Of a stretch of 64,000 bases of DNA, positions 47,374 to 64,000 are shown in pieces. The DNA is taken from the NCBI RefSeq assembly GCF_004795855.1, contig NZ_CP039252.1, forward strand, positions 2,914,001 to 2,978,000, in the 5' to 3' direction. This DNA comes from Hydrogenophaga sp. PAMC20947 (GTDB taxonomy: Bacteria > Pseudomonadota > Gammaproteobacteria > Burkholderiales > Burkholderiaceae_C). Position 1 is the first letter of the stretch. Every line of letters starts with the position of its first letter. The notes under the pieces were generated by a model. The model was not told the DNA's origin. It saw only the letters and a list, made by a program, of their open reading frames with translations, and ran no database searches. A program made the translations under genes and the position numbers.

Positions 47374-47583
47374 TTACTCAAATTCGACTGGGCTGAGGAA
47401 GTCTAGCTTTGAGTGTTTGCGCACCGGGTGGTAGACGAGCTCGATGTAATCGAACACATCGGACCGGGCTTCTTCCCTTGGCCGATAGACCTTGCGGTTA
47501 AGCCGCTCGGTCTTCATCGATGAGAAGAAGCTCTCCATCGCTGCGCTGTTCCAGCATTCACCCAGACGACTCATGCGAGAGCA
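47374..47583 (-). pseudogene. IS3-family transposase C-terminal remnant
   Basis: The complement strand reads MSRLGECWNSAAMESFFSSM, KTERLNRKVYRPREEARSDV and FDYIELVYHPVRKHSKLDFL, then SPVEFE and stop: the end of an IS3-type OrfB including the last catalytic Glu. The rest of the transposase and both ends are missing. It marks the left border of the accessory region. Confidence 0.85.
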
Positions 47584-47991
47584 GGCACTGCGCGCCGGGC
47601 CCAGATGACGTGGACTGGCTTGCGAGCGAGTCCCGTCCCACAATCGCCAGCCTAGGTCACAGTCAGCAACTTTGTTATCTCTACAAAGAAGCCAGTTGCC
47701 GACTTTGTTTCGCAGTAAGCGCCATTGTTTTCAGTCAACGACTTTGTTTCCCGCGCACACAAACTGTTCTTTGCCATTAAAGTCCGGGACAACCTCCCCA
47801 GGGAAAAAAGCACGAAGCGGAAAATTTCAGCGGCTAAAGTCTGGGACATTCGCGGACTCCAGAGAAGAAACTGAGCGAGGCGCGCATTAATGTCTGGGAC
47901 AACGCAGTCAACAGGACGAGCTGTCGCATCCCGTGGGTGCCGCGATCTTCAACCTCTCGCCATTTAGGCGGCAGGATCACCCTCTTTTGTC
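47584..47991. other. Degenerate repeat-rich border of the island
   Basis: No gene. Three related short motifs follow each other: AAAGTCCGGGACAAC (about 47781), AAAGTCTGGGACATT (about 47835) and AATGTCTGGGACAAC (about 47889); the last belongs to the 53-bp direct repeat. They look like piled-up ends of a mobile element. Confidence 0.55.
47869..47921. repeat. Left copy of 53-bp imperfect direct repeat flanking the TIR island
   Basis: Core CGAGGCGCGCA and TCTGGGACAACGC are shared with 60371-60423 in the same orientation; about 46 of 53 positions agree by eye. Confidence 0.75.
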
Positions 47992-48783: not shown

Positions 48784-49338
48784 CTATCCGTTTCTTGATT
48801 TCATTGGCATGGAGTTATCAATCATCGTGCTTGATGCACTTGCCGCTGTATGCAATGCCAATGCCAGAGTTTGGGCATTCAGGTTTTCCCAGAAGACGTA
48901 GGACGCATATCCTGTAACAACGTTGTGCTGAAACCGATCCGGTACGACAATTTTGCCCTCGGTGCCTCGGGAGTGGGACGGCAAAACGATGCCAAGAAGC
49001 CCATGCTGCTTATCCAGAGTCGCCCTAATTTCCCAATCCACATACTTGCGCTGATGGGTTTGTCCGCCGATTAGGACCACCGTGCAGGATGTTCCCGTAA
49101 TGTAGTTGTCGCGAATCCGTTGCATAACATAGGCAGTGTTGTCACTGTCTATCTGTCTTTCCAGCGAGTTGTCATAAACAGCCTCGTAACTGTCGTGGAA
49201 CACGCGTGAAAACTCGTTGTAATACCACTGATCACCACCATGGTGATAGCTGACAAAAATCCGCCGCCGAGGCGGAGCCGACATAGCCGAGCCAATTATT
49301 CCAAGTGAAGCCATGCTGAGTGGTCCGTAGCCAGCCAT
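48784..49338 (-). CDS. ThsB-like TIR protein (MTH538/DUF1863 type)
   Basis: 184 residues. After about 22 residues comes RRIFVSYHHGGDQWYYNEFS (beta-A and first loop), then a long alpha-A region, NYITGTSCTVVLIGGQTHQR and KYVDWEIRATLDKQHGLLGI. The Glu in DWEI is at the place of the catalytic Glu of NAD-processing TIRs. This is the TIR-like subtype of ThsB in Thoeris. Its ATG directly follows the TAA of a small membrane protein, and a membrane patatin gene lies just upstream. Likely a signal-making or NAD+-consuming immune protein; no ThsA homologue is near. Confidence 0.8.
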   Translation of the reverse strand: MAGYGPLSMASLGIIGSAMSAPPRRRIFVSYHHGGDQWYYNEFSRVFHDSYEAVYDNSLERQIDSDNTAYVMQRIRDNYITGTSCTVVLIGGQTHQRKYVDWEIRATLDKQHGLLGIVLPSHSRGTEGKIVVPDRFQHNVVTGYASYVFWENLNAQTLALALHTAASASSTMIDNSMPMKSRNG

Positions 49339-49534: not shown

Positions 49535-52102
49535 TTACAGCAGCAGCCGCTGCTCCAACTGTAGCAACCAATCTGCCGCTCCTTTGGGGTCCGACCCTGC
49601 AAGCAATGGATCGAATGCAGCCTCGGCAGCATGTTCGCCTAGTGCGCGATAGGCTTCAAACTGTTCCTCGCTAAACAGTTGCTGTGCGGTGCTCTGATGC
49701 GGGAAAGTGGGATTGAGTTGCTGGAATTGCATCAGCAGTTCCGACTCATTGCCTGTCAATGCCAGCTTGATCACCAGAAGCAGGCCATGAATCGGTTGGC
49801 CGTTTTCCTCGTCACCATAGTCGATCCGCGCCATTGCGAAGTGAGCACGCTTGAACGGCTCAATGCCGTGGCGAAGATCCGACAGGTCAGGCTCGATGCG
49901 CACGCCCAGATCGATCTTAGCCATCCGGATCGAATTCAAAAGGCCACCAAACGAGTGTTGAGGGTCTGCTTCACCATCGATGAGCACGATGTACCGGCAC
50001 CGTCGGCGAAGCAGTTCGTACATGCCCATGTTCTCGACGTGCCCTCCGTCGGAAACATTGACGAACGACTGATTCTCATGCATGCGCCCCGTAAGTTCGC
50101 GCGTGAAGTAGAGACCACCGGGGACTGCATCCCAGCCGTTCGATTCGGTGGGTTTGCGAACCCAGTAGCCGAGCCGCACGTTCAGCATTGCGAGCAGTGT
50201 TGTATATCTACTCGAGGTGAGCGTCCCCATCCTCGGAGCCGCTGCCGCACCGGAAATTGCCATGGCGGTCCCGAGGTCCAGATGTTTGTCTTTGGCCTCC
50301 CAATCCTTCGTCGGCCAATAACCCACTGTTGGGCCGCCGCAGTAATGCTGGGCAAAGATGAAAAAATCTGTGTCGCGGCCGCGTAGCTCTGGATTTCGAC
50401 TCGCTGGTAGGTTGACCGCCGCATTTATCAGGTGCAATGGTGCCTTGTGGAAAGGATTGAGCGCCGATAAAGGCTGTGGGTCCACGGCTTCGGGCTGGTG
50501 CACGCGTCGCAAGTAGGTACGTGCGAGGCGGCTACGGTAATACAAGTGCAGCGAGGCAAAATTAATGTTTACACCGACCCAGCCGTAGATCCAAAGTAAG
50601 GCCGTTAAGATCCAAGGCCACCAGCGGTTTTGTTCTTTCAGTTCAACCACAACGTCAACTGCCACCAGCCACAAGGTCAGAAAAAAAAGCGGCCCAAAGA
50701 ACACCATCAATGACCACACAACCCGACCTAGCCTAGTCTCCAGGCCCAACCACAAACCAGACGCTCCGAGGGCGAACGGCAGCAACACCACGGCCACCAG
50801 CAATCCAACAGAGTTACCGCGACTTAATTGCACCAGGTCTGGCAGTTGTTTTGCAGTAAGTAGCATTAGCCCCAACGCACCCAATGCGATAGCCACTTTC
50901 TCCATGACCTCTCGCGATTCCCGAGATGGATTGCGCAAAGCCGATAGTACGAAGATCGCCACCCCAAAAGCGGCCCATGTCACGGTGTTTAGAGTCGCAT
51001 AAGTAGACGAATGGCTGATAGACCTCTCACCGACGCCAAAGAAGTCAACTGCCACGGCAGCCATAAACATCAGTAGCGGTGCGATGAGCAGCAAGGACAT
51101 CACCACGCCATAAGCTGCTGAGAAGACCATCAGCGCTAGCGTCGCTACACCGCCTTCTGAAAGGTATTTGCTGTGATTGCGTAAATGCCGGATGGCCTCC
51201 GACTCGATCTGTCCTTTCGTCGTGAACGGCAACTTGTCGGGGTTCAACCCCACCCGCGCGTCGTTGTCGTTCATAACCGAGGTGATGAAGCTACCAAGAT
51301 AACCGCCTCCAGACACCGTCGACATGACGTCAACATCCTTCAGTACCCCGTGGCGGGCCAGAACGTTCGTTACACCCAACGCGAAGGTCGCAGAACGGAT
51401 TCCTCCGCCTGAGATTGCCAAACCAATCGCGTCGTGTATCTCAGTCGCATCGGCATCAGGCCCGCCGGCCCGCCGTGCGGCAAGAAGACGCACTTCCTCA
51501 GCATTTAACGCATCGACCTTTTTTGAATTCTGGCCTTTGTCCGATATGCCAAATTTGACCTGGCCGCGCGAAGTTGCCTCATTCTTTCTCGTCTGCGATA
51601 AGGGCGCGAGTAGCGCTAGCGCATCGCGATCACCTGCGATCTGACCAAGCAACGCAGCGAAGCCTCGCAGGACAGTTTGCAGTTCGGTCAACTCGAACCG
51701 GAAGCGGAACCGCTCGTCCAGATTCGCGAGATCACCCGCCTCCATCTTCGAGTGCCACCGCGCGGTGAGTGGTCTTATCCGGCTGTTTAGACAGTGAACG
51801 AGCAACGACGACACGAGCACCGCCTGCGGCTGTCCCATCATCGCTTCGCGCGAAAGGCTGAATAGGTCCACAAGGCTCTTCAATGCGGACGCTTCCACCC
51901 CATCTCGAAGCGGCAACTCCTGCGTCGCGATTCGGGTACGCAATTGCGTGTACATGTGCCAGGCCAGTAGCGCATCCTGTTCATTAGGATGCCACGGATC
52001 AGTGGCTCGACCAGGCGGGATCAGAGCGGCAACAAGGTCGGAGGCTGAACCACACATTTCGGTTACACGCTGTTCCCAGCTTGCCTCTGATTCGTTCGTC
52101 AT
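49535..52102 (-). CDS. Membrane-embedded patatin-like phospholipase
   Basis: 855 residues from ATG 52102, with GAGGG 7 bp before it. The helical N-terminal about 220 residues are unassigned. The patatin domain starts AIGLAISGGGIRSATFALGV (oxyanion loop, about 230) with the nucleophile-elbow region MSTVSGGGYLGSF (about 260). A block of about six membrane helices (roughly 310-540) is inserted, and the catalytic Asp motif VNVSDGGHVENMGMYELL returns at about 690. Ser/Asp dyad residues are present. Patatins are frequent effectors in nucleotide-signalled defence (CBASS), where they break membranes. Here the partner is a TIR protein, not a cyclase. Confidence 0.85.
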   Translation of the reverse strand: MTNESEASWEQRVTEMCGSASDLVAALIPPGRATDPWHPNEQDALLAWHMYTQLRTRIATQELPLRDGVEASALKSLVDLFSLSREAMMGQPQAVLVSSLLVHCLNSRIRPLTARWHSKMEAGDLANLDERFRFRFELTELQTVLRGFAALLGQIAGDRDALALLAPLSQTRKNEATSRGQVKFGISDKGQNSKKVDALNAEEVRLLAARRAGGPDADATEIHDAIGLAISGGGIRSATFALGVTNVLARHGVLKDVDVMSTVSGGGYLGSFITSVMNDNDARVGLNPDKLPFTTKGQIESEAIRHLRNHSKYLSEGGVATLALMVFSAAYGVVMSLLLIAPLLMFMAAVAVDFFGVGERSISHSSTYATLNTVTWAAFGVAIFVLSALRNPSRESREVMEKVAIALGALGLMLLTAKQLPDLVQLSRGNSVGLLVAVVLLPFALGASGLWLGLETRLGRVVWSLMVFFGPLFFLTLWLVAVDVVVELKEQNRWWPWILTALLWIYGWVGVNINFASLHLYYRSRLARTYLRRVHQPEAVDPQPLSALNPFHKAPLHLINAAVNLPASRNPELRGRDTDFFIFAQHYCGGPTVGYWPTKDWEAKDKHLDLGTAMAISGAAAAPRMGTLTSSRYTTLLAMLNVRLGYWVRKPTESNGWDAVPGGLYFTRELTGRMHENQSFVNVSDGGHVENMGMYELLRRRCRYIVLIDGEADPQHSFGGLLNSIRMAKIDLGVRIEPDLSDLRHGIEPFKRAHFAMARIDYGDEENGQPIHGLLLVIKLALTGNESELLMQFQQLNPTFPHQSTAQQLFSEEQFEAYRALGEHAAEAAFDPLLAGSDPKGAADWLLQLEQRLLL

Positions 52103-52299
52103 GTTGGTGCCCTCATTTTCGAATACTCGGTTCGAATGCAACTCGCATCCAAGGTGTCACTGGTGGCAACGGATGTCTCCAACTTAAGCAACGCGTTGTC
52201 GCTGCTCCATTTTGTGTCGCCCCCAGCAACGCGAGAAAGAGCTGCGGATTCGCCGTCTTGAGGCAAGACCATCAGTTCACCGACGACTGCAACAATCAT
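52099..52299 (-). CDS. Possible short leader frame coupled to the patatin gene
   Basis: 66 residues from ATG 52299; the stop overlaps the patatin ATG (ATGA). No known domain or convincing ribosome-binding site. It could be a real coupled peptide or chance. Confidence 0.3.
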   Translation of the reverse strand: MIVAVVGELMVLPQDGESAALSRVAGGDTKWSSDNALLKLETSVATSDTLDASCIRTEYSKMRAPT

Positions 52300-52400: not shown

Positions 52401-53045
52401 CTAGCTGTGAGCCGTAACTTTATTGTCCTTAGCGGAATATCTCGAACTAGCAGCGTCAAAATCGAAGGGATCTGCTATCAACCGATTTGGAATGGAATTT
52501 GCTTCAATAAAGGAGGTGAGTGGCTGCGCCACAACGCTGTCGAACGTTCGATGATTGCGCCGATTTGCGTATCCCAAATTCTCAAGGATCGATATTGGAA
52601 TCTCCAGTGCAGCAGATCCGAAGTAAAAAAAATGATCTGATACAAGAACTGCATCAGTTTGTGTGTCGTTCTTGACGTTATGAATATTGGGTGAACCATC
52701 CGGATAGCTATGGTGCGAGTCAAGTTGTCGCCATTCACCGTTGAACTTGTGATAGATATTATCGCCAACAATCATTTTCAAGCTGCCATTGCGGATTGGG
52801 CGTTTGTCTCGATAGCTCGGATTTGTCCAATATTCGTTGAAAGTGATTGAACGAGATACTTTCATGGCAAATATGCACCGCCCGGTTGCCTTTAACCGCG
52901 TACCACCCATTCCAATAACCCAGTCAGCTTCTTTTGCTACCCGTCGGATGATTGGCTTGCATGTTGCCAAGGTGCAAACGCCATGGAATGGATTCGGTGC
53001 AAATCCGAAGTCTCGATCTACAACATACATGTATGTGTTAGACAT
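52401..53045 (-). CDS. Nmad2-type protein (nucleotide modification associated domain 2)
   Basis: 214 residues from ATG 53045, 2 bp after the TIR stop. The conserved start YMYVVDRDFGFAPNPFHGVC is followed by TLATCKPIIRRVAKEADWVI, DSHHSYPDGSPNIHN and DAVLVSDHFFYFGSAALEI. This is the pattern I know for the Nmad2 family, predicted to act on or recognise modified nucleotides. Biochemistry is undetermined. Last gene of a compact four-gene operon with a TIR protein, a UDG-fold protein and a MazG-like protein. Confidence 0.7.
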   Translation of the reverse strand: MSNTYMYVVDRDFGFAPNPFHGVCTLATCKPIIRRVAKEADWVIGMGGTRLKATGRCIFAMKVSRSITFNEYWTNPSYRDKRPIRNGSLKMIVGDNIYHKFNGEWRQLDSHHSYPDGSPNIHNVKNDTQTDAVLVSDHFFYFGSAALEIPISILENLGYANRRNHRTFDSVVAQPLTSFIEANSIPNRLIADPFDFDAASSRYSAKDNKVTAHS

Positions 53046-53047
53046 AC

Positions 53048-53545
53048 TTAGCAACTTGTCCTCACGGAACCGTTCACTGATTGGCGTAACTTGCCGTCTG
53101 AACCTTCAAAGAAATTCTCTGAACTGTCTATAGCCCTTTGAATGCTACTGGCATTCCAACCAACAATTGCCGATGCATATTTTTCAAGGCTATTGGGAAT
53201 ATCTGCGTCTTTGCCACCCTGTTCAAAAACACCTACTATTCTTTTTCCTTGCGCATGTGCTTGATCAATTTCCCAATTAACCCAAGGTCTAGAGTGAGTC
53301 TGCTCACCAATCAGAACTACGACCGTAGATGCCCAAGAAACCTTCATCCGGAGCAAGCGTTTTAATACGGCATCTTTCACTAGCCCGTTTTTTAAGCGCT
53401 CATCGTTGGCTGGTTTCGCTCGGATCGAACTATTGCGAACGTCCCAACCCTTACCCCCTAACAAATTGGTAAATTTGTCGACGAGCGAATCATCTTGATG
53501 ATGGTGGCTAATGAAAAGGTGACGTCGCTCATCGGGTGTTGCCAT
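53048..53545 (-). CDS. ThsB-like TIR protein, second copy
   Basis: 165 residues from ATG 53545. RRHLFISHHHQDDSLVDKFT is the TIR start; WDVRNSSIRAKPANDERL the BB-loop region; MKVSWASTVVVLIGEQTHSR and PWVNWEIDQAHAQGKRIVGV follow, with the likely catalytic Glu in NWEI. It is the MTH538/ThsB subtype but only distantly similar to the TIR at 48.8 kb. It lies 10 bp after the UDG-like gene and 2 bp before the Nmad2-type gene, so it is a central part of that operon. Confidence 0.85.
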   Translation of the reverse strand: MATPDERRHLFISHHHQDDSLVDKFTNLLGGKGWDVRNSSIRAKPANDERLKNGLVKDAVLKRLLRMKVSWASTVVVLIGEQTHSRPWVNWEIDQAHAQGKRIVGVFEQGGKDADIPNSLEKYASAIVGWNASSIQRAIDSSENFFEGSDGKLRQSVNGSVRTSC

Positions 53546-53555
53546 AATGATCTGC

Positions 53556-54230
53556 CTAAAACAACAAAGTCTGGGTTGAGGAATTCGCCCGTTTGCTGAC
53601 GTCAATGCCGTGCAACTGGCCAATTCCGCGGCGAAAATCCGTCACACCGCCGTAGCTGGGATGCCTGACACAGGCCACTTCGACGCCAAATTTCTCAGCA
53701 TATGACGCCGCGTCCTGTCCGATGGAAACGATCCTCCGTACTCCAAGCCAAGAAATCAAGGCGGCATTTAATTCGTCCACGCAGCGCAACTCTCGAGCAG
53801 TAAACCTCCGATTTGTAAAAGGCTCGCCGGGCTCATGAGGATGGAATGGAAACACATTCCACAGCAAAGGTGGTTTGTCCAACAGGCAGAGTACCGCCCA
53901 TATCTCTGCTGCTGTCCGTTCTGCGACCTCCGGGCCACGGGTGGTTTTAACCGACTCACTCCCAGGGTATACCTGCTGCATCATTGGTAAATGCCGCTCG
54001 TCGGTCAAAGCAAGGCCAGTTCGCCGCCCTCCACGATATCCAAGATCTCGTCCCATCCATATGGTGTCCACTCCCAATTGCTTGGCAGAGGTTAGCAGGA
54101 GTCTGAGATTTCGACGACGTGTTGATGGAGCGTCGGCTTTGTCATGGACATCGCACACATGGGCATAGGGATTAAAGACATCCGGCAACTCAATGCCAGC
54201 CATCTGTTGGACGAAACTTTGTGGGGTCAT
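53556..54230 (-). CDS. Uracil-DNA-glycosylase-fold protein
   Basis: 224 residues; its start overlaps the MazG-like stop by 4 bp. UDG-superfamily marks: TIWMGRDLGYRGGRRTGLAL in place of the GxDPY loop, LLWNVFPFHPHEPGEPF as the Asn motif, and VRHPSYGG as the HPS leucine-loop motif. The catalytic Asp/His may differ from housekeeping Ung. In this operon it may excise or sense an unusual base, or bind a base-modified nucleotide. Substrate unknown. Confidence 0.75.
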   Translation of the reverse strand: MTPQSFVQQMAGIELPDVFNPYAHVCDVHDKADAPSTRRRNLRLLLTSAKQLGVDTIWMGRDLGYRGGRRTGLALTDERHLPMMQQVYPGSESVKTTRGPEVAERTAAEIWAVLCLLDKPPLLWNVFPFHPHEPGEPFTNRRFTARELRCVDELNAALISWLGVRRIVSIGQDAASYAEKFGVEVACVRHPSYGGVTDFRRGIGQLHGIDVSKRANSSTQTLLF

Positions 54231-55447
54231 ATAATTTCAGTGCTCGGCACTGGAGGATTGAATATCAATTTGTGCCTTTTAAGGTCAACAATTACGATGC
54301 CACCTTTGTGGTGGTACAGCTCCCGGAACACTCGGAATCCATCAAGAATTGCATTTTCCCATTGCCAAAGTGGGCAATTCGCCACCATCAAACCATCAAC
54401 CATGCTACGGATCTGCTTTAAGAGCGAGTAATCCAGTCGCCCGGGGGGTACATCGGCATACAGCTTGCGATCATTTCCCTTTGCATGATTGAATATCCAC
54501 GTGGCAATTCCTTCTTCGAGAATAATGGCTCTAGCCCCGTCCTCGTTCTCATCGAGTTGAGGCTCAGATTTACGCTTCAGCTTCAACAATGCGCGTATTA
54601 CTGGTGACCATCCAAGATGCGCTGCGTAGGAAAGATGGAAAACGTCATGAAAACGATAACCATCTGCGCGGCGACTGTTGTCTGTCAGCGGATCACCGAT
54701 ATTCAGCCCCTTGATTTGCTGAACCACCATCAACCGATTGCCGATCTTCCGTTGAATGAATTCAACTTCCATTCGAGCTGGGAACTGCTCAAAATCTTTC
54801 CCACCAGGTTCAATTAAATAGTAGCGCTTTTGGGGTGGCCAACGATCGTAGATTTTCAAAAGGTTTTGGTTAGCGATTTCCCCCAACTCCAACGCAAAGC
54901 AAGCGCTGACCAATGCGAGGTCGCCAAGCAATTGACCGAACATGCTTGCCCGATTCTCAACAGGCTCGTTCAAGATGCGGTCAAATTTAAATGAAGTCGC
55001 TAAACCACTATCGTATGCCAATTCTCGCAGGAGTTCCTCACTGCTCCTGCTAAGGGTTGTATGATGCAGTGATGCAATGCCATCCAACTGGCGAAATGTA
55101 ATTGCTGTAATTTCACTTCGAGACGTTTCGTTGAATCGTCGGCGCAGAAAAAAGAGTCCCGCCTGGCCAAGTTCATTGGGACCTATGCCCGACAAGCCAG
55201 CTGCATTGACTAGATACCAGAGTGCATCCCCGATCTCGTCTCGGACAACTTCTGAGTCAGTTTGATAGAGCTGATCTCGGCGTCTCTTTTTCAGCGCTGA
55301 AAGCAGCCCACCAATTTCTCCAAAAAATCCGAAAGTCAGCTTCTTGTAGTGATCATGCGCGGCTTCATTCGTGAACCTATCAGTCTTGGCAGCCTGTTTG
55401 CAATAGCTCAGCAGAGTCAGCGGTGCCCCAATAATTTGTGCTTTCAT
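54227..55447 (-). CDS. MazG-like nucleotide pyrophosphohydrolase-related protein
   Basis: 406 residues, GAGGG before ATG 55447. The N-terminal about 100 residues show the MazG-type helices FGFFGEIGGLLSALKKRRRD and EVVRDEIGDALWYLVNAAGL, with the acidic metal ligands. A middle helical region is unassigned. A C-terminal block RFHDVFHLSYAAHLGWSPVI and ENEDGARAIILEEGIATWIF could be a second MazG-like or HD-like helical site. The family hydrolyses (d)NTPs to monophosphates. First gene of the operon; it could remove a modified nucleotide or provide one to its partners. Confidence 0.7.
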   Translation of the reverse strand: MKAQIIGAPLTLLSYCKQAAKTDRFTNEAAHDHYKKLTFGFFGEIGGLLSALKKRRRDQLYQTDSEVVRDEIGDALWYLVNAAGLSGIGPNELGQAGLFFLRRRFNETSRSEITAITFRQLDGIASLHHTTLSRSSEELLRELAYDSGLATSFKFDRILNEPVENRASMFGQLLGDLALVSACFALELGEIANQNLLKIYDRWPPQKRYYLIEPGGKDFEQFPARMEVEFIQRKIGNRLMVVQQIKGLNIGDPLTDNSRRADGYRFHDVFHLSYAAHLGWSPVIRALLKLKRKSEPQLDENEDGARAIILEEGIATWIFNHAKGNDRKLYADVPPGRLDYSLLKQIRSMVDGLMVANCPLWQWENAILDGFRVFRELYHHKGGIVIVDLKRHKLIFNPPVPSTEII

Positions 55448-56080
55448 TTTTGCCCTCTATGTTCATCATAAAGGATATGCAACCCGAATTGCTCGTAAGC
55501 AGTCAGTCGTATTTGACCGCTCCTGGTCGTCATGAACCGGTCACGACACGAAACTCTATGACTGGATACGCTGGAGGCCGTGTGATAACTCCCTGGCAGC
55601 CCGAGCGAGTCACGCGTCGATTGCAGATTTGTCTGTTTATGCGAGTTGATACCGTCTGACAGAAGCCAAGGCGATGCTGAAGACCAGTTTGGCCCTTATT
55701 TCGGGCCTGCAACGACCGCAAAGGGCGCCTATGCACCCAACAACCGCATCGCTTTTTTGGTCCCCTCAAAGCCCAAGATGCTGAGGACGCGTTTGAAGTT
55801 GTAAGCCAACACGGCCAGGCTCATCTCAGTTGCCACGTTCTGGATGCCACGGCGTACTACAACCTTCACCGCCCTCACTCAGCAACCGGACATCGCCCTC
55901 CAGCTTCTCGCCTTGGCCTTGCAGTGAACAACGTCGTGAGAAACTACAGCTAGAGACGAACCTGCGTAGCTATGATCTTAAGTGAAAGCAGAATTGCGTT
56001 AGCCCAGAAAAATCAGGGCTACACCTTTCCGGCCAAATGCATTACCAGCACGCTTGTCAAAGAGGACGAGGAAAAACCAA
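55448..56080. other. Intergenic region with IS remnant
   Basis: About 630 bp between the divergent MazG-like and HEAT-TIR genes. Apart from the transposase remnant at 55729-55880 no gene is supported. It must carry both promoters. Confidence 0.5.
55729..55880 (-). pseudogene. IS1182-type transposase C-terminal remnant
   Basis: The complement strand reads RRGIQNVATEMSLAVLAYNF, then KRVLSILGFEGTKKAMRLLG and stop. The MSLxVLAYNxKRVxxILG block is the usual C-terminus of IS1182-family transposases. Everything upstream is lost. Confidence 0.7.
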
Positions 56081-58015
56081 ATGAGTGACAGCCAGCTGAT
56101 CTCTGATTTTTTCAGCCGAGATGTGCTACTGGGCGATCGCGCTTTAAAAGCTGCAGTCGCGGACCGTGGGGAGGAAGCGCTGAGACTGTTCATTCCCGAA
56201 CAAGAAGGTTATGGAGCCAGCGGGCTTCAGATTGAGCAACGACTGGCAAAGCTTGCCGCGTCGATCGGCGCCAACGCCGTCGACTACCTTATCCGAGTGA
56301 TTCGCAATGGATCATGGCAGAGTATGCTTTCGGCCGCTCCAGCTTTTGCAGGGTTACGAGAACACAAACAACGAGCCACCGAGGGGCTGGTAGACGTTTT
56401 AAAGCAGGGTGAAATTGATTCTCAGCGCCTCGCAATCGAAGCGCTGGGATACTTGGGAGCAGACGATCTAGCATTCTGCATATCAGAGTTTGCCGAGAAT
56501 GGCGAGTGGATACCTCAGAGGGACCATAGGCGACAGCCTAGTAGGTATCACCTAGACAAATTCTATTTCTACGTCGCACAGGCACTCATACGTATGACCG
56601 CGTCGTTAACCAGTGTCAACGCCATCAGTCGTTGCCTTCGCCAGTTCAGAGATTTCCTCCCAATTTGTGACGAAGTACTTGGCCAAAATCGGATCAGTGG
56701 CTGGGATGTGCGCTTCGTTCAGCACAATTTTCCGTCGCGGGCAGCGGATCCTCTGGTGAGAGACTGGATCGCCAGTGACTCGCATTTTCTTCAGGATTGT
56801 GGCGTCGAAGCACTGGGCCATTTGCGACTCAGTCGAACGAGCGCATTCCTGTTGAGTGTGCTCGAGGACCCACGATTCAACGACTCAGTACGCAAAACCG
56901 CGGGCATCAGTCTCTCTGAGTTTGCAGACGCTGGAGCGGCGGCGAAACTTGCGGAACGCTTGAACAGTGCTTCAGATTCCCCGGGATTCTCCTGGGCGTT
57001 TGCATCGCTCTATGCGCATGATGTGGCGTGGCCCGCGTGCGATGAATTCGTTGAGGAGCTTTTAGGCCAGGAGAACAACGACTCTGAGATCTCGGCACAC
57101 ATGATTTATTCGCTAGCATGCCGAGGCGACACCCGAGCGGAACGAAGTTTCTCAGCATTGAACTCACAGCATCTCCACATGCGCGGAACAGGCGCAATCG
57201 CCTGCGCTCGATTCAATCCAGAAAGTGCTCGCGAAGCGCTGTTTGGGCGCGATGAGGAAGCTAATAATCCGATGGAACTCGCGTGCATACTCGCTGCCCA
57301 AGTGCACGCTGGTCACGTAGAGAAGGTCGACTCGCTGCACCAAGCACTCACCACGTTTGGTGAATTGCCGTTTCTCAGACCCATCTGGAAGCGTGAGGTG
57401 CTGTATGCGTTCTTTGTTGCGGAGGGAAGCGACTCGGAGCGAGGGAGGCTCTGGTGCGAGGCAGCTTTGGAGACACCTAGGCGAGTCGTCACGGAGATGC
57501 AGGCACTGCTCAAGCGCAGAGCCAGGGAAGTCAGTGCGAACCGGTTGCCGAGGTCGCAAGCGGAACTGGCCTCGGCAGCATCGCGTGAGTCGCAAGAAGT
57601 TAAAGACAAATTCGACGTGTTTATATCGCACGCCTCAGAGGACAAAATAAACCTCGCGGAACCTCTCTATCATGCTCTCGTGGCTGCCGGTGTAACCGTG
57701 TGGTTCGACAAGACCGAGCTTAAGCTCGGAGACGGGCTACGCCGCAAGATCGACGAAGGCTTAGCGCGTTGTCGCTATGGTATCGTGATATTGAGCCCAA
57801 GTTTTCTAGCCAAACAGTGGCCACAAAATGAACTTGGTGCATTAATGGCGCGGGAGACAGTGTCAGGGGTTAAAGCGATCCTGCCTATCTGGCACGATCT
57901 GAGCGTTGAGGAATTGCTCCGCCAAGCACCGATGCTGGCCGATCGACTCGCGTGCCGCAGTTCAGAAGAGATGAGCTCAATTGTGGCGAAGATCCTGGAT
58001 GTACTAAAAGACTGA
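56081..58015 (+). CDS. HEAT-repeat protein with C-terminal TIR domain
   Basis: 644 residues from ATG 56081 (GAGGAAAAACCAA upstream). Residues about 1-480 are all-helical with HEAT-like units (AIEALGYLGADDLAFCISEF, DCGVEALGHLRLSRTSAFLL). The TIR domain begins about 508: KFDVFISHASEDKINLAEPL, BB loop VWFDKTELKLGDGLRR, RYGIVILSPSFLAKQW, and PQNELGALMARE with the catalytic Glu near 583. A helical sensor plus NADase TIR is a common single-gene abortive-infection design. It points away from the MazG-like operon. Confidence 0.87.
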   Translation: MSDSQLISDFFSRDVLLGDRALKAAVADRGEEALRLFIPEQEGYGASGLQIEQRLAKLAASIGANAVDYLIRVIRNGSWQSMLSAAPAFAGLREHKQRATEGLVDVLKQGEIDSQRLAIEALGYLGADDLAFCISEFAENGEWIPQRDHRRQPSRYHLDKFYFYVAQALIRMTASLTSVNAISRCLRQFRDFLPICDEVLGQNRISGWDVRFVQHNFPSRAADPLVRDWIASDSHFLQDCGVEALGHLRLSRTSAFLLSVLEDPRFNDSVRKTAGISLSEFADAGAAAKLAERLNSASDSPGFSWAFASLYAHDVAWPACDEFVEELLGQENNDSEISAHMIYSLACRGDTRAERSFSALNSQHLHMRGTGAIACARFNPESAREALFGRDEEANNPMELACILAAQVHAGHVEKVDSLHQALTTFGELPFLRPIWKREVLYAFFVAEGSDSERGRLWCEAALETPRRVVTEMQALLKRRAREVSANRLPRSQAELASAASRESQEVKDKFDVFISHASEDKINLAEPLYHALVAAGVTVWFDKTELKLGDGLRRKIDEGLARCRYGIVILSPSFLAKQWPQNELGALMARETVSGVKAILPIWHDLSVEELLRQAPMLADRLACRSSEEMSSIVAKILDVLKD

Positions 58016-59487: not shown

Positions 59488-60033
59488 ATGAACGCCGAGA
59501 TATTTGACCAATTCACTCTCTATCCCGAATCGAGCCTACTCACCTTTGCTCTTCCAGATGAGCACGTGAGGTTCCTCGCTCACGTAGGGCTTCCTACGTG
59601 GTGTGCTCCAAATATGCACTTCGGCGAGGTCGGCGAAAAATGGGTTCTGTTGCCGGCCATAGAGGCTGGCAGTAAGCGTTGCCTTGCCCTTGGCGAAGAT
59701 AGAAATGAAGCCCCTATCGGCATAGATCTAGTTGACCATTCAGTTTGGGTTCTCCCACATCAGACTGAGCCACTCTTTATGGCCAGAAACGTTTTGGAAC
59801 TAGCCAAGGTACTCTCGCGCTTTCAAGCTTCAATAGACGCTGCGGTTGACCACGATTCTTCTGCCTATGTTGAGAGGCGAGTTCGAGCCAGCTACCTTCA
59901 CTCGTTCATTTCGTGGGCCAATGAAGAAAGTCCTTCATTGCTTCGAGCAGGCTCATACTGGCACGGCGTATTGCTCTGGTTGGGTGTGCCTCACGATTCG
60001 CTGCAGGCGACGGGTCTGTCGGATCGCACTTGA
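59488..60033 (+). CDS. SUKH-4-like immunity-type protein
   Basis: 181 residues. LPDEHVRFLAHVGLPTWCAP, then GEKWVLLPAIEAGSKRCLAL, APIGIDLVDHSVWVLPHQTE and LFMARNVLELAKVLSRF give the SMI1/KNR4 (SUKH-4) outline. Such proteins usually neutralise a polymorphic toxin encoded next door; none is visible here. It may be an orphan immunity gene or may have another role in the island. Confidence 0.6.
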   Translation: MNAEIFDQFTLYPESSLLTFALPDEHVRFLAHVGLPTWCAPNMHFGEVGEKWVLLPAIEAGSKRCLALGEDRNEAPIGIDLVDHSVWVLPHQTEPLFMARNVLELAKVLSRFQASIDAAVDHDSSAYVERRVRASYLHSFISWANEESPSLLRAGSYWHGVLLWLGVPHDSLQATGLSDRT

Positions 60034-60453: not shown

Positions 60454-61275
60454 TTAAGATTCAAGCGCATCCATGTACTCCTGAGCCAAACCCAGCCGCA
60501 GGCGTTGCATGTGGCGCCATGGCGTTCTGATGATCTCTCGGCTATCCGCGTCAAGTGTCGGCGACCACTGCATTGTTTGGTCGGCAAACAGTCGAACCTG
60601 GTTGGCTTGCCGGGCAGATGTTTCGAGAGAACCTTCGCAAGGAAGGAGCAAACGCTCAAGTCGAGGAAGTCGTGATGCCATACCGAGGCCAGCCGGATCG
60701 AAGTCGAAGTAGGCCCAAACTGGCTCCTTCCTTGCCTCAATCACTTTCAAGGCTGCATCGGCTCGCAAACCATTGTCTCCCCGAAAGATCGCCAAAACGT
60801 CTTTTCCCAGATAGTCGAGCCAGCGATTGCGCTCGAGGAAACGAAAGCTCTCTAGGTTTTCCACCACCATCAGCGCGTCGGCGCGCACCGAAACTGACTG
60901 CTCGTGTGTCAGCACCTGATAGCCAATCTGAGGTACCGAATTGGCATCCAGGAGGCATCTTCCATGAGCCGTTTTGATAGCAACCGAGTCGTAATGCGGG
61001 GAGAGCGTGCCACTCTTCTCGCTACCAGCAATATTCAGAACAGCGTCAATGCGGCGTAGCGTTTTCTCTGGCGATACCGCTGCGATACGACGGTTGACCA
61101 GCATCTGCGCAGCTCGTTCAGCGTCTTCTTTCGAATAGACGAACCTTGATCCCGCTCGGAGACCTAGCCCGTGCTGCGTGAGGAAGAACTCCGCTGAAGC
61201 ACTTGCGCCCTTCTCTATGGCACCCCGTGCGGCCAAGTTCCGCAGGAAGGCAATCTGGGAATAACTGAAGCTCAT
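60454..61275 (-). CDS. TOPRIM-type nuclease subunit of an SMC/Wadjet-like system (JetD/MksG-like)
   Basis: 273 residues; its start overlaps the kleisin-like stop by 4 bp. The C-terminal half has VRADALMVVENLESFRFLER (conserved Glu) and PVWAYFDFDPAGLGMASRLP (DxD), the arrangement of TOPRIM domains in JetD/Spo11-like nucleases. The N-terminal half could be a winged helix. In Wadjet the corresponding subunit cleaves closed circular DNA held by the SMC motor. Similarity to classic JetD is only by motif; calling it a relative is inference from motif and context. Confidence 0.6.
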   Translation of the reverse strand: MSFSYSQIAFLRNLAARGAIEKGASASAEFFLTQHGLGLRAGSRFVYSKEDAERAAQMLVNRRIAAVSPEKTLRRIDAVLNIAGSEKSGTLSPHYDSVAIKTAHGRCLLDANSVPQIGYQVLTHEQSVSVRADALMVVENLESFRFLERNRWLDYLGKDVLAIFRGDNGLRADAALKVIEARKEPVWAYFDFDPAGLGMASRLPRLERLLLPCEGSLETSARQANQVRLFADQTMQWSPTLDADSREIIRTPWRHMQRLRLGLAQEYMDALES

Positions 61276-62531
61276 GGTCGAGAGGCCTCTGCCAGTCGAG
61301 CGGATGCATCCGTGAACAGGTCATTGAATTCGCCGGGGGCACGCGTCCCAATCTCCAAATCTACTGCGTAACCGGCTGAAGAAATCTGCGAGTAGGCGTA
61401 GAGAAGCCATTCCTCATCGGTGGTGTCGTTGTCTAGTCCGTATGCAGAACCCAAGCGCCGACGCCATCGCAGCAACGACAAATCTGCTTGTACGCTCAAC
61501 ACTTCGTCGCCGGTCAAGAAGTCAAGGTAAGCGTCGACGAGCTCATCGATCGGTGCAGGCTGCGGCTGCTCGATCTCCTGACGAGTGGACACCACCACCG
61601 GTGGCGTCATTGGTGCCTGCTTTGCAACAGGCGTGGCCGAGGGCAAGCGTTTTGCTGCAGTGAGCATGCCTTGAGCGACAACCGGATCTGTATCGGTCAC
61701 ATCGATATTCCAGGTGCTGATCAGTGCAACAGGTGCCGTCAGGCGATCGGCAATCTCCGTCGTGATTTCCACCTCAAAACCATCGCTCAAGCGGTTCTTA
61801 GAAAGCCAAAGAGCCACGCGGGCCAAATTTCGCTGCTGCGCCTCAAGCTGCCGAAACGAAAACAGGTTCTTGGAAACCACTCGCTGGATGTCAGTGATGC
61901 GCGCAGCCCAGTCGCGCAATCGAGAAAGGATGCGTACGTTGAGCAGGCGGTGCACTTCTGCGAAGCCCTCTCCGATGGACTGAGAATCCATTTCCTGCGC
62001 CTTGGCGTCCAGACTGCTAATCTGCTGACCGAAACGCTTGACCTCGCCGTAGTAGAACTGGTTCTCCCGGATCTTGCCTCCCACCGAGTCGACATCACCG
62101 AAATTGGTCGAGACTTTGGCGCTAAGCAATTGCAGGTTCTGATCCATGTAGAAGCCGATCCTGACGATCGACTCCTCAAGCCTGCTCATTGCACGGTCCG
62201 AATCGCGAAACGATCCCTCCCGACGAAAGTCGCGCAAGCTGTCAAACTCCAAGCGCAGTTGGCGGATAGGGCCATCCAACCGTGTGAGCTGGCGAAATGC
62301 CCCGTAGCTCACCACGTAGTCGCCGATGAATTCGCGCAAGAGCGGGTTGAGGTAATACGTATCCTCATCGACGGGCATCAGCGCGCGCATGCGGATCAAC
62401 GTCTCCACACCCTTGTCGCGCTTGCCGCCGGTGGACACAGGTCCGCGCATGGCAATGCCCACCAGAGCGCTGTGCTCCGACAGTGCCTTCAGCAGTTGCT
62501 GGATGTGATTTGGCGTCTCACTCACGCTCAT
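61272..62531 (-). CDS. Kleisin-like subunit of SMC/Wadjet-like system (JetA/MksF-like)
   Basis: 419 residues from ATG 62531, overlapping the upstream gene by 14 bp. N-terminal winged-helix-like part (GVETLIRMRALMPVDEDTYY, LNPLLREFIGDYVVS), a long helical middle (about 110-290), then a Pro/Gln-rich linker and a small C-terminal domain (DELVDAYLDFLTGDEVLSVQ). This layout fits a kleisin bridging the SMC heads. No enzymatic motif. Confidence 0.55.
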   Translation of the reverse strand: MSVSETPNHIQQLLKALSEHSALVGIAMRGPVSTGGKRDKGVETLIRMRALMPVDEDTYYLNPLLREFIGDYVVSYGAFRQLTRLDGPIRQLRLEFDSLRDFRREGSFRDSDRAMSRLEESIVRIGFYMDQNLQLLSAKVSTNFGDVDSVGGKIRENQFYYGEVKRFGQQISSLDAKAQEMDSQSIGEGFAEVHRLLNVRILSRLRDWAARITDIQRVVSKNLFSFRQLEAQQRNLARVALWLSKNRLSDGFEVEITTEIADRLTAPVALISTWNIDVTDTDPVVAQGMLTAAKRLPSATPVAKQAPMTPPVVVSTRQEIEQPQPAPIDELVDAYLDFLTGDEVLSVQADLSLLRWRRRLGSAYGLDNDTTDEEWLLYAYSQISSAGYAVDLEIGTRAPGEFNDLFTDASARLAEASRP

Positions 62532-63198
62532 CATCCTGGCCCAAGTTTCGCAACAGGTCCGACTGCTCGATCGCTTTGTTCTGCCCTTCTTCGCCCACGC
62601 CCAGCTCCTCCAATGGTGCTTCGGAGAGTTCGGGCACATTCTCAACCAGGTACTGCAACACCGCATGCAGATGGTCTATTTTTCCAGCGATTTGGTAAAT
62701 CTCACTGGCCTCATTAGAGAGGACTAGGTACCCATCGGCTTTTAGCTTTTCTAGCATCCGACGCATGAGGTCGTGGTTGGACCAGCGCGAGTCGGCACCC
62801 GGGATCCGAAGTTCACGCAACTGCGCCACCAAAGTCGAGTCCTCGTTGACTCTGAGCACAATCTCAGCAAGTTGGACATATTCTCCAGGCACGCCGCGAA
62901 ACCCCTCCTTAGCCAGGCGCACCAGATTGAGCATCTGGGTGAGCAACCCATAGCTGTCTCGAAAGCGAATCAAGTCTGCACGCACTTTGGAGACGTCTTC
63001 ATTGCGGTGCACCTGCAGTGGCGCCACGTAGAAGGCCCCATCCTCGCCCAGCCGAGCCAGTCGCCGGTCAATTCCAGCAAGCCACGCGTCAACGCGCTCG
63101 GAGTCGCCTGCTGCGGTAAGGTCTTCGTATGCCTCAGGGAAGGCGAACTGGCAGATGAAATTGCCTGCCAGCAGTTCTTTGAGGGTGTCAGGTTTCAT
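62518..63198 (-). CDS. KITE-like subunit of SMC/Wadjet-like system (JetB/MksE-like)
   Basis: 226 residues from ATG 63198; overlaps the ATPase stop by 11 bp. Begins MKPDTLKELLAGNFICQFAF; the middle GAFYVAPLQVHRNEDVSKVR and the C-terminal winged-helix-like MRRMLEKLKADGYLVLSNEA with an acidic tail fit MksE/KITE proteins that bind the kleisin. The frame is open upstream, but that stretch overlaps the ATPase gene. Confidence 0.6.
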   Translation of the reverse strand: MKPDTLKELLAGNFICQFAFPEAYEDLTAAGDSERVDAWLAGIDRRLARLGEDGAFYVAPLQVHRNEDVSKVRADLIRFRDSYGLLTQMLNLVRLAKEGFRGVPGEYVQLAEIVLRVNEDSTLVAQLRELRIPGADSRWSNHDLMRRMLEKLKADGYLVLSNEASEIYQIAGKIDHLHAVLQYLVENVPELSEAPLEELGVGEEGQNKAIEQSDLLRNLGQDDERE

Positions 63199-64000
63199 GG
63201 TCTGCTCCTTCAAAACCCACCGTGGCACCAACACGACCATCGACTGAACCAGATTTACCACGGCGCGCCGCCGGGGCAAAAAGACCGATCGCGCCTCGGT
63301 CTCTAAAAAGGTAGCGGCGTTCGAAATGGCGAAACTCAGCTGGCGTGAGTTTTGGCGATGCCGTAACTGGATCGATTCGGTTCTCGCGCAGCGTGTCCAT
63401 AAGTCCCTTGAAGTTGCCAGCATCAAATTTGCCAACCTCATCTGAGATCCACGGAATGTAGAGATCGGCCTTGCCGCGCACCATATTGAGCATTCCCACG
63501 AGCAAACTGATCAAGATGATTGCATTGATACCGGTCGAGGAGATGTGCTCCAGATCGGCCTCGCGGCTGAAGTGTCGAGTTTCGCCGTTGACCGTGACGC
63601 TGCCCCGGAGTGCTACATGCGACGCTAGGTCTAGCTCCACGGTGGAGTCCGAGCGAAGGAGCGCCAAGAACTTGGTCAACGCGCCAGCCGTGTTGGCGTC
63701 GGGTAGCTGAGGAACATCACTCACTCGGATATTGGCCTCGTGATCGCGCGCCACCCGCTCAATCTCGTCAACCTCTTTGATGAGATCCAGGTCAGAAAAG
63801 TTTGAGACTATGGCAACCTTGAAGTCATCGATACGCTTGAAGTGGGCAACACTCAGTCCCTTTTGCAACTCCGCATTGAAGCGTTTGACCTCGGCTTCGA
63901 AGCGCGTGATGACGCCGCGGAACTGGCGAACCTGTTGCAATATGACCGACGCCTCGTTAATCACGTTGGGAAGTACCTGCCTTCCAAGCTCTTTGTGCAG
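63188..64000 (-). CDS. SMC-like ATPase (JetC/MksB-like), C-terminal part, runs off the window
   Basis: The frame is open from the window edge, so only the last about 270 residues are seen. A coiled-coil exit (FEAEVKRFNAELQKGLSVAH) leads to an ABC head: EHISSTGINAIILISLLVGM in the place of the signature motif, Walker B ADLYIPWISDEVGKFD with its Glu, and PVTASPKLTPAEFRHFERRY near the end. The N-terminal Walker A must lie beyond 64000. First gene of a four-gene operon with 11, 14 and 4 bp overlaps. Confidence 0.7.
   Translation of the reverse strand: MHKELGRQVLPNVINEASVILQQVRQFRGVITRFEAEVKRFNAELQKGLSVAHFKRIDDFKVAIVSNFSDLDLIKEVDEIERVARDHEANIRVSDVPQLPDANTAGALTKFLALLRSDSTVELDLASHVALRGSVTVNGETRHFSREADLEHISSTGINAIILISLLVGMLNMVRGKADLYIPWISDEVGKFDAGNFKGLMDTLRENRIDPVTASPKLTPAEFRHFERRYLFRDRGAIGLFAPAARRGKSGSVDGRVGATVGFEGADHET

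Follow-up and report, generated by a model that had tools for sequence, protein, structure and literature searches.

A 64,000-nucleotide stretch of the Hydrogenophaga sp. PAMC20947 genome (assembly GCF_004795855.1, contig NZ_CP039252.1, positions 2,914,001 to 2,978,000; hereafter the window, whose own numbering is used throughout) contains an operon of four genes, all on the minus strand. The first (54227..55447) encodes a 406-residue protein in which a MazG-like all-alpha pyrophosphohydrolase domain is fused to MazG_C. It overlaps by 4 bp the gene for a 224-residue protein of the uracil-DNA glycosylase (UDG) superfamily (53556..54230), which is followed after 10 bp by the gene for a 165-residue ThsB-like TIR protein with a catalytic Glu (53048..53545) and, after a further 2 bp, by that for Nmad2 (nucleotide modification associated domain 2; 214 residues, 52401..53045), assigned by a PF18753 match of 2.4e-70 and 236.6 bits against a cut-off of 26.1. 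A first-pass annotation made from the sequence alone had described these four genes and their spacing, and the open reading frame (ORF) coordinates agree with it; the gaps of 10 and 2 bp hold with the ATG starts of the TIR and Nmad2 genes, the ORF list using upstream TTGs (53623 and 53054). That annotation had interpreted the operon as surveillance of modified phage bases or nucleotides, with MazG and UDG sensing or processing an unusual base and the TIR executing NAD+-based signalling or cell death.

The module is real and recurrent. A scan of one genome per species gave 349 confirmed UDG relatives, of which the best 80 (nearest to the query) were retained together with flanks of up to 10 kb; loci gathered for comparison are labelled L001 and so on. 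A MazG gene lay within 6 kb of the UDG gene in 76 of the 80 loci, and in 59 of the 60 whose two flanks both measure 5 kb or more. Nmad2 was found within the same distance in 25/80 (20/60), and at least three of the four genes of another cassette, here cassette B, were found in 52/80 (40/60). Both arms were present in one locus and neither in four (1/60), three of these four being cut by contig ends. The arm models were built from these same loci, and the counts describe these loci rather than an independent test. Cassette B (for example L002:8690-11871) comprises a helix-turn-helix protein, an ImmA/IrrE peptidase with a weak chagasin-like match, a C1 peptidase and a protein weakly similar to thymidylate synthase (TS), and it has the look of a separate, protease-based system; no solved TS matched the last protein and Pfam gave 0.018, so the TS label stays weak. 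At a cut of 95% UDG identity, 65 loci remained, 44 with cassette B, 12 with a TIR-like gene and Nmad2, 5 with Nmad2 in another setting and 4 with neither; eight Methylobacterium/Methylorubrum loci are close copies. The two gene pairs occurred in the orders TIR-Nmad2-MazG-UDG and MazG-UDG-TIR-Nmad2 as well as convergently and divergently, and the idea that the four genes belong together, which would have fallen had they not been co-conserved, was thereby borne out. Nmad2 was present in 6 of 398 genomes of the phylum and MazG_C in 4 of 369 of the class, both counts including the window's own genome; because these genes are rare and the set recurs elsewhere, chance adjacency is unlikely.

The two arms have been exchanged repeatedly. 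On a MazG+UDG tree of 81 rows, built quickly and containing several long branches, there are 11 or more switches between arms, at least six of them forced by well-supported branches, and a tree in which the 31 Nmad2-bearing rows form a single clade was rejected (approximately unbiased test, p 1e-59; the locus with both arms was left out). The window's sister is L031 (Diaphorobacter), which carries cassette B (Shimodaira-Hasegawa-like approximate likelihood ratio support 99). Since the exchange has taken place again and again beside one MazG-UDG core, it argues that both arms perform the same sort of function for that core. The UDG position may itself be exchangeable. On the virus-labelled contig L140 (7502-10601), a TIR with the Cys tail described below and Nmad2 are followed by a 5-hydroxymethyldeoxyuridine (5-hmdU) DNA kinase helical-domain protein and a radical SAM protein, which replace MazG-UDG, and L183:5476-9264 carries in a row a helix-turn-helix protein, ImmA, a TS-like protein, a 5-hmdU kinase helical-domain protein (tested as L113) and MazG, that is, cassette B without UDG.

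The protein encoded just before Nmad2, in what we call the slot, ends in a shared cysteine tail in all 25 Nmad2-bearing UDG loci. In the window this tail, recognised by reading the C-termini of the slot proteins, takes up 26 codons of the TIR gene (53051..53128) with Cys last. The 53 slot ORFs yielded 32 distinct tails, every one with a Cys within the last five residues; among TIR-family ORFs of the same loci not standing before Nmad2, taken as a control, this held for 1 of 20 distinct sequences (1 of 17 after removal of one row truncated by a contig end and two fragments of a gene with a frameshift). When the 120 best homologues of the window TIR were compared, 119 ended exactly in Cys, the exception being a 222-residue protein with a different end, and 1 of the 120 Nmad2 proteins serving as a control set did so. 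The TIR homologues are close (62-94% identity). Because the residues just ahead of the Cys vary, the commonest one accounting for 29%, 50% and 41% at positions -2, -3 and -4 against 100% Cys at -1 (119 homologues), kinship alone does not explain the terminal Cys. A search of open-licence literature returned nothing for ThsB with a C-terminal cysteine, and we have not found a Cys tail tied to Nmad2 described.

The window TIR matched the ThsB_TIR family (PF08937, 4e-19), the PADLOC ThsB model PDLC00418 (5.6e-52) and solved ThsB chains (9e-7), and we class it as ThsB-like on the model match together with the Glu, which is the catalytic residue of TIR domains. This Glu is present in 19 of 19 aligned TIRs of the window type, the window's included, and in all 34 hits longer than 400 nt, a count that includes duplicates and a size limit that leaves out degenerate TIRs. 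In 16 aligned slot-type proteins of the degenerate kind, seven of them database relatives without known gene context, the Glu column holds Ala (14) or Gly (2), and a Cys near the end is kept in all. The Methylobacterium and Aurantimonadaceae slot proteins that were inspected (L081, L091 and L103) have neither FISH box nor Glu, and their last residues are KRNKC or KRNRC. An earlier label of NDT-like for the degenerate slot protein (PF05014, 0.006) was dropped, as a PADLOC ThsB match of 1e-6 and the alignment identify it as a TIR without Glu. Because Glu-less TIRs in the slot keep the tail, the tail and Nmad2, rather than NADase activity, appear indispensable to the arm; on this comparison of residues, the element that its members share is the Cys tail with Nmad2 and not NAD+ cleavage.

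A comparison of 70 Nmad2 rows, duplicates included, showed Cys29 in every one. Cys24, in contrast, was found in 49 of the 50 tail-linked rows and 10 of the other 20, and His112 in all 50 of the former and 12 of the latter. A site formed by Cys24, Cys29 and His112 may be where the tail Cys makes contact with Nmad2. One search gave 4,825 relatives of Nmad2, and we sampled 18 Nmad2 loci from genomes other than that of the window: in 6 of the 18 a TIR of this family stands directly before Nmad2, and 4 of these 6 also carry MazG-UDG. Seven IMG/VR contigs hold Nmad2, and four of them also hold UDG, these four being all the UDG contigs found there. Comparison of Nmad2 with solved structures gave meaningless matches only, and open-licence literature on Nmad2 returned unrelated papers only. 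A second context for Nmad2 was seen in L018, L019 and L173, where its partner is Nmad3 (by Pfam in L019, by similar sequence in L018 and L173) and no adjoining TIR or Cys tail was seen.

The UDG-like protein had no Pfam match even at an E-value of 10, and its profile matched solved structures weakly only (0.17). Profile-profile comparison with PF03167 members, in contrast, gave 92% and an E-value of 5e-7 over 90 columns, with the Asn of LWN and RHPS in register, and ten column shuffles used as a control reached at most 1.1%; by this measure, the protein belongs to the UDG superfamily. The first-pass annotation had called for a check of the active-site residues of UDG and MazG, and those of UDG proved invariant: the Asn of LWN, which we take to bind uracil, the His of RHPS, presumably the motif-B His, and the Asp of GRDLG are the same in all 86 tabulated sequences (of 87, the one left out coming from the locus with both arms, which is in none of the tabulated groups). 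Motif A has the unusual form [GA]RDLG, which differs from the standard UDG motif A forms. Plasmids and virus-labelled contigs carry the module; 37 plasmid records match UDG, most of them annotated as uracil-DNA glycosylase, and for 11 of the 37 the entry for that match also names a MazG-type pyrophosphatase gene. No INPHARED phage record matched the window's Nmad2, MazG or UDG at 1e-5.

Turning to the MazG-like protein, Pfam matched MazG_C strongly (PF18722, 7.5e-72) and the N-terminal MazG domain weakly (PF03819, 0.13), and the family profile matched solved MazG-like and dCTPase chains (1e-5 to 4e-4). In MazG pyrophosphohydrolases the metal ligands lie in an EXXE...EXXD motif. Glu44 and EXXD are present in all 77 rows with letters at these columns; in MazG_C, H267, D268 and H271 are kept in 80 of 80 tabulated rows, and E311 and E312 in 79 of 79 with letters. 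We take the conserved MazG, UDG and MazG_C motifs to be catalytic on general grounds.

The run of minus-strand genes extends beyond Nmad2. A patatin-like phospholipase gene (49535..52141; PF01734, 4e-7) begins about 260 bp past it and is followed by a second ThsB-like TIR gene (48784..49338; PF08937, 6e-26), whose product has no Cys tail. Patatin also lies near TIR-Nmad2 in L006 and L063, with a partial match in L181, and the second-TIR model matched near the module in L006, L078 and L107, with partial matches in L142, L163 and L164. As they are found near the module in some loci only, both are possible but not constant parts of it. Other effector-like neighbours in some loci are SLATT and SLOG proteins with TIR: a SLOG cluster-2 protein and a TIR protein of about 395 residues stand after UDG or Nmad2 in L006, L041, L058, L064, L078 and L165 (SLOG partial in L165), and a SLOG cluster-3 protein with a TIR occurs in L163 and L008. 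SLOG, SLATT and TIR families of this kind reportedly belong to the nucleotide-centric conflict systems surveyed by Burroughs and colleagues.

Further genes of the window were recorded around the operon. Adjoining it on the opposite strand is a gene for a HEAT-repeat protein with a C-terminal TIR (56054-58015, plus strand), and farther along are a borderline SUKH-4 immunity protein match just under the cut-off (59488-60033, plus strand) and Wadjet-like genes (60454-64000, minus strand), namely DUF7281, a weak MksE match and a DUF3584 gene of which the window end leaves just the C-terminal part; PADLOC gave no call for the Wadjet-like parts tested. On the other side, a transposase integrase-core fragment (47374-47643, minus strand) is a sign of mobile-element traffic next to the operon. 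We counted the nearby Wadjet-like genes and the effector-like neighbours (SLATT, SLOG-TIR, patatin) as pointing towards defence.

The domains of the module have already been predicted to be defensive, and its TIR is ThsB-like. The DefensePredictor study (PMC13092281, 2026) names MazG, MazG-C and NMAD among the domains of predicted, unvalidated defence systems drawn in a figure whose legend also gives UDG, and its legend of validated systems lists an NMAD and a 5-hmdU DNA kinase; for earlier predictions it cites Burroughs et al. 2015. The likeness between these systems and the module is one of domain names and of predicted defensive role. The word TIR is absent from the main text of that paper, and the sections and passages of it covered here hold nothing on a tail or on cassette exchange. 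No open-licence paper was found for the combination of MazG, TIR, uracil DNA glycosylase and defence. The statement of the first-pass annotation that no described system has this set is thus partly wrong, as MazG, MazG-C, NMAD and UDG are already named for predicted defence systems in PMC13092281. A glycosylase of UDG-superfamily likeness also acts in anti-phage defence against a modified base in the case of Brig1 (PMC11078745), which resembles UDG and excises alpha-glucosyl-hydroxymethylcytosine; Brig1 was found as a protective clone, whereas here a predicted UDG forms part of a multi-gene module.

We consider it somewhat probable that the operon belongs to a modular anti-phage system in which a conserved MazG-UDG core is combined with either of two arms that can replace each other, the arm in the window being the TIR with Nmad2; that the module is defensive in the general sense is probable. 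In such a system the MazG-UDG core would recognise or process an unusual pyrimidine base or nucleotide appearing in infection: UDG would bind the base in DNA or cut it out, and MazG would bind the nucleotide or hydrolyse it. The Cys tail of the TIR would dock on Nmad2 or be chemically worked on by it, and this contact would set the state of the arm. An encounter made by MazG-UDG would then change the tail-held TIR-Nmad2 complex, and, where the TIR Glu is intact, its release or activation could lead to NAD+ cleavage or to an NAD-derived signal. The neighbouring patatin and second TIR may serve as downstream effectors in the window, and membrane-acting partners (patatin, SLATT) or SLOG-TIR pairs may do so in some of the loci elsewhere; where the TIR is degenerate, Nmad2 or another gene would have to act. 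More tentatively, we suggest that the coupling could be a thiol or metal-ligand relay, the tail Cys being read or modified by Nmad2 and the TIR, or a dead TIR as a carrier, being held or activated by Nmad2 depending on what the MazG-UDG core detects in the DNA or nucleotides of the phage.

Several observations weigh against a modular anti-phage system of this kind. A TIR with Glu occurs in just 10 of the 25 Nmad2-bearing UDG loci and a degenerate one in 15 (9 inspected by alignment, 6 judged as close copies from Methylobacterium); because of these 15, NADase signalling cannot, judging by the residues, be the general executor of the module, although the Glu of the window TIR is intact. Of the 77 MazG rows with letters there, 75 have Gly, Ser or Thr where EXXE has its second Glu, one has Asp and one keeps the Glu, so that one of the four canonical metal ligands is gone in nearly all copies and plain pyrophosphatase action is doubtful, even with Glu44 and EXXD in place. 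A tail model built from the Pseudomonas-type slot proteins, which are degenerate TIRs, matches 24 of 25 TIR-type tails, of which only 12 outscore every one of 500 shuffles (highest shuffle score 10.4 bits; two leading tails at 47.8 and 30.9), the likeness of the other 13 resting on the Cys and on inspection. Twelve of the 18 sampled Nmad2 loci have neither this TIR nor MazG-UDG (one of them, L176, has a sub-cut-off match only, and L175 lies at a contig end), and several of the twelve pair Nmad2 with Nmad3 or a similar protein, so Nmad2 is not exclusive to the module. Conversely, TIR-Nmad2 stands without MazG-UDG in L140, L169 and L177, and the patatin model matched within 6 kb of UDG in just 1 of the 80 UDG loci. 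Nmad2 as an EVE/PUA-like base reader was tried and rejected, the comparison with PF01878 (23 EVE proteins) giving 0.1%, no better than six shuffles; no fold or activity could be established for Nmad2, none is reported in the literature searched, and no phage experiment with the module was found there. Overall, the linkage of the genes seen by the first-pass annotation stands and the key UDG residues and the Glu of the window TIR are intact, whereas its views of MazG catalysis, of NADase execution as a rule and of full novelty had to be changed.

We weighed three other explanations of the same data. The genes could form a modification pathway for the DNA of the cell or of a mobile element itself, UDG, MazG and Nmad2 making, cleaning up or editing a modified pyrimidine and the TIR-like protein acting as a carrier that contributes its terminal Cys to the reactions. 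Degenerate TIRs that keep the tail without the Glu would suit such a role, as would the thymidylate synthase (L012), thymidylate kinase (L006), 5-hmdU DNA kinase helical domain (L113/L183, L140) and radical SAM protein (L140) of related loci and the TS-model match upstream of Nmad2 on the viral contig L141. We nevertheless regard this as unlikely, given the sparse occurrence of the module, the 37 plasmid records matching UDG, and the company of TIRs with Glu, SLATT, SLOG, patatin and C1 peptidase, neighbours that are typical of conflict systems. Slightly less likely still is a relative of Thoeris, in which two ThsB-like TIRs would make an NAD-derived signal for patatin as the effector (SLOG, SLATT or SIR2 elsewhere), MazG-UDG and Nmad2 being sensors or accessories. 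The module does resemble Thoeris in its ThsB-like TIR with Glu, matched by both PADLOC ThsB and solved ThsB, in often having more than one TIR, as in the window, and in the SLOG proteins of some loci. The patatin and SLATT neighbours would suit this reading too, and in L008 the gene directly behind UDG is annotated as SIR2-family. It differs in the Nmad2 partner, the Cys tail, the MazG-UDG core and the TIRs elsewhere that lack the Glu thought to be needed for signal synthesis. No ThsA-type protein was found among the operon proteins tested with Pfam; a STALD search of the genome gave no match, and no control matched either. Moreover, none of the 80 UDG loci has a TIR of this family within 6 kb of UDG without Nmad2; in L061, such a TIR lies about 8 kb from UDG, with neither Nmad2 nor a Cys tail.

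MazG-UDG and TIR-Nmad2 might, finally, be two independent defence cassettes that merely share islands, which would account for the three loci where TIR-Nmad2 lacks MazG-UDG and for the varying order and strand of the two pairs. Such independence fits poorly with the presence of exactly one of the two arms in 75 of 80 UDG loci, three of the four loci with neither being truncated at contig ends, and with the repeated exchange of arms beside the same core, and we consider it very improbable.

The comparison gathers domains predicted to be defensive into one module whose parts can be tested: UDG and MazG as the conserved core, the two arms that replace each other, and a single residue, the tail Cys. 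A change of this Cys should separate coupling from catalysis. Nmad2 would thereby gain a concrete partner. If true, the thiol or metal-ligand relay would represent a new form of coupling between base surveillance and an immune effector.

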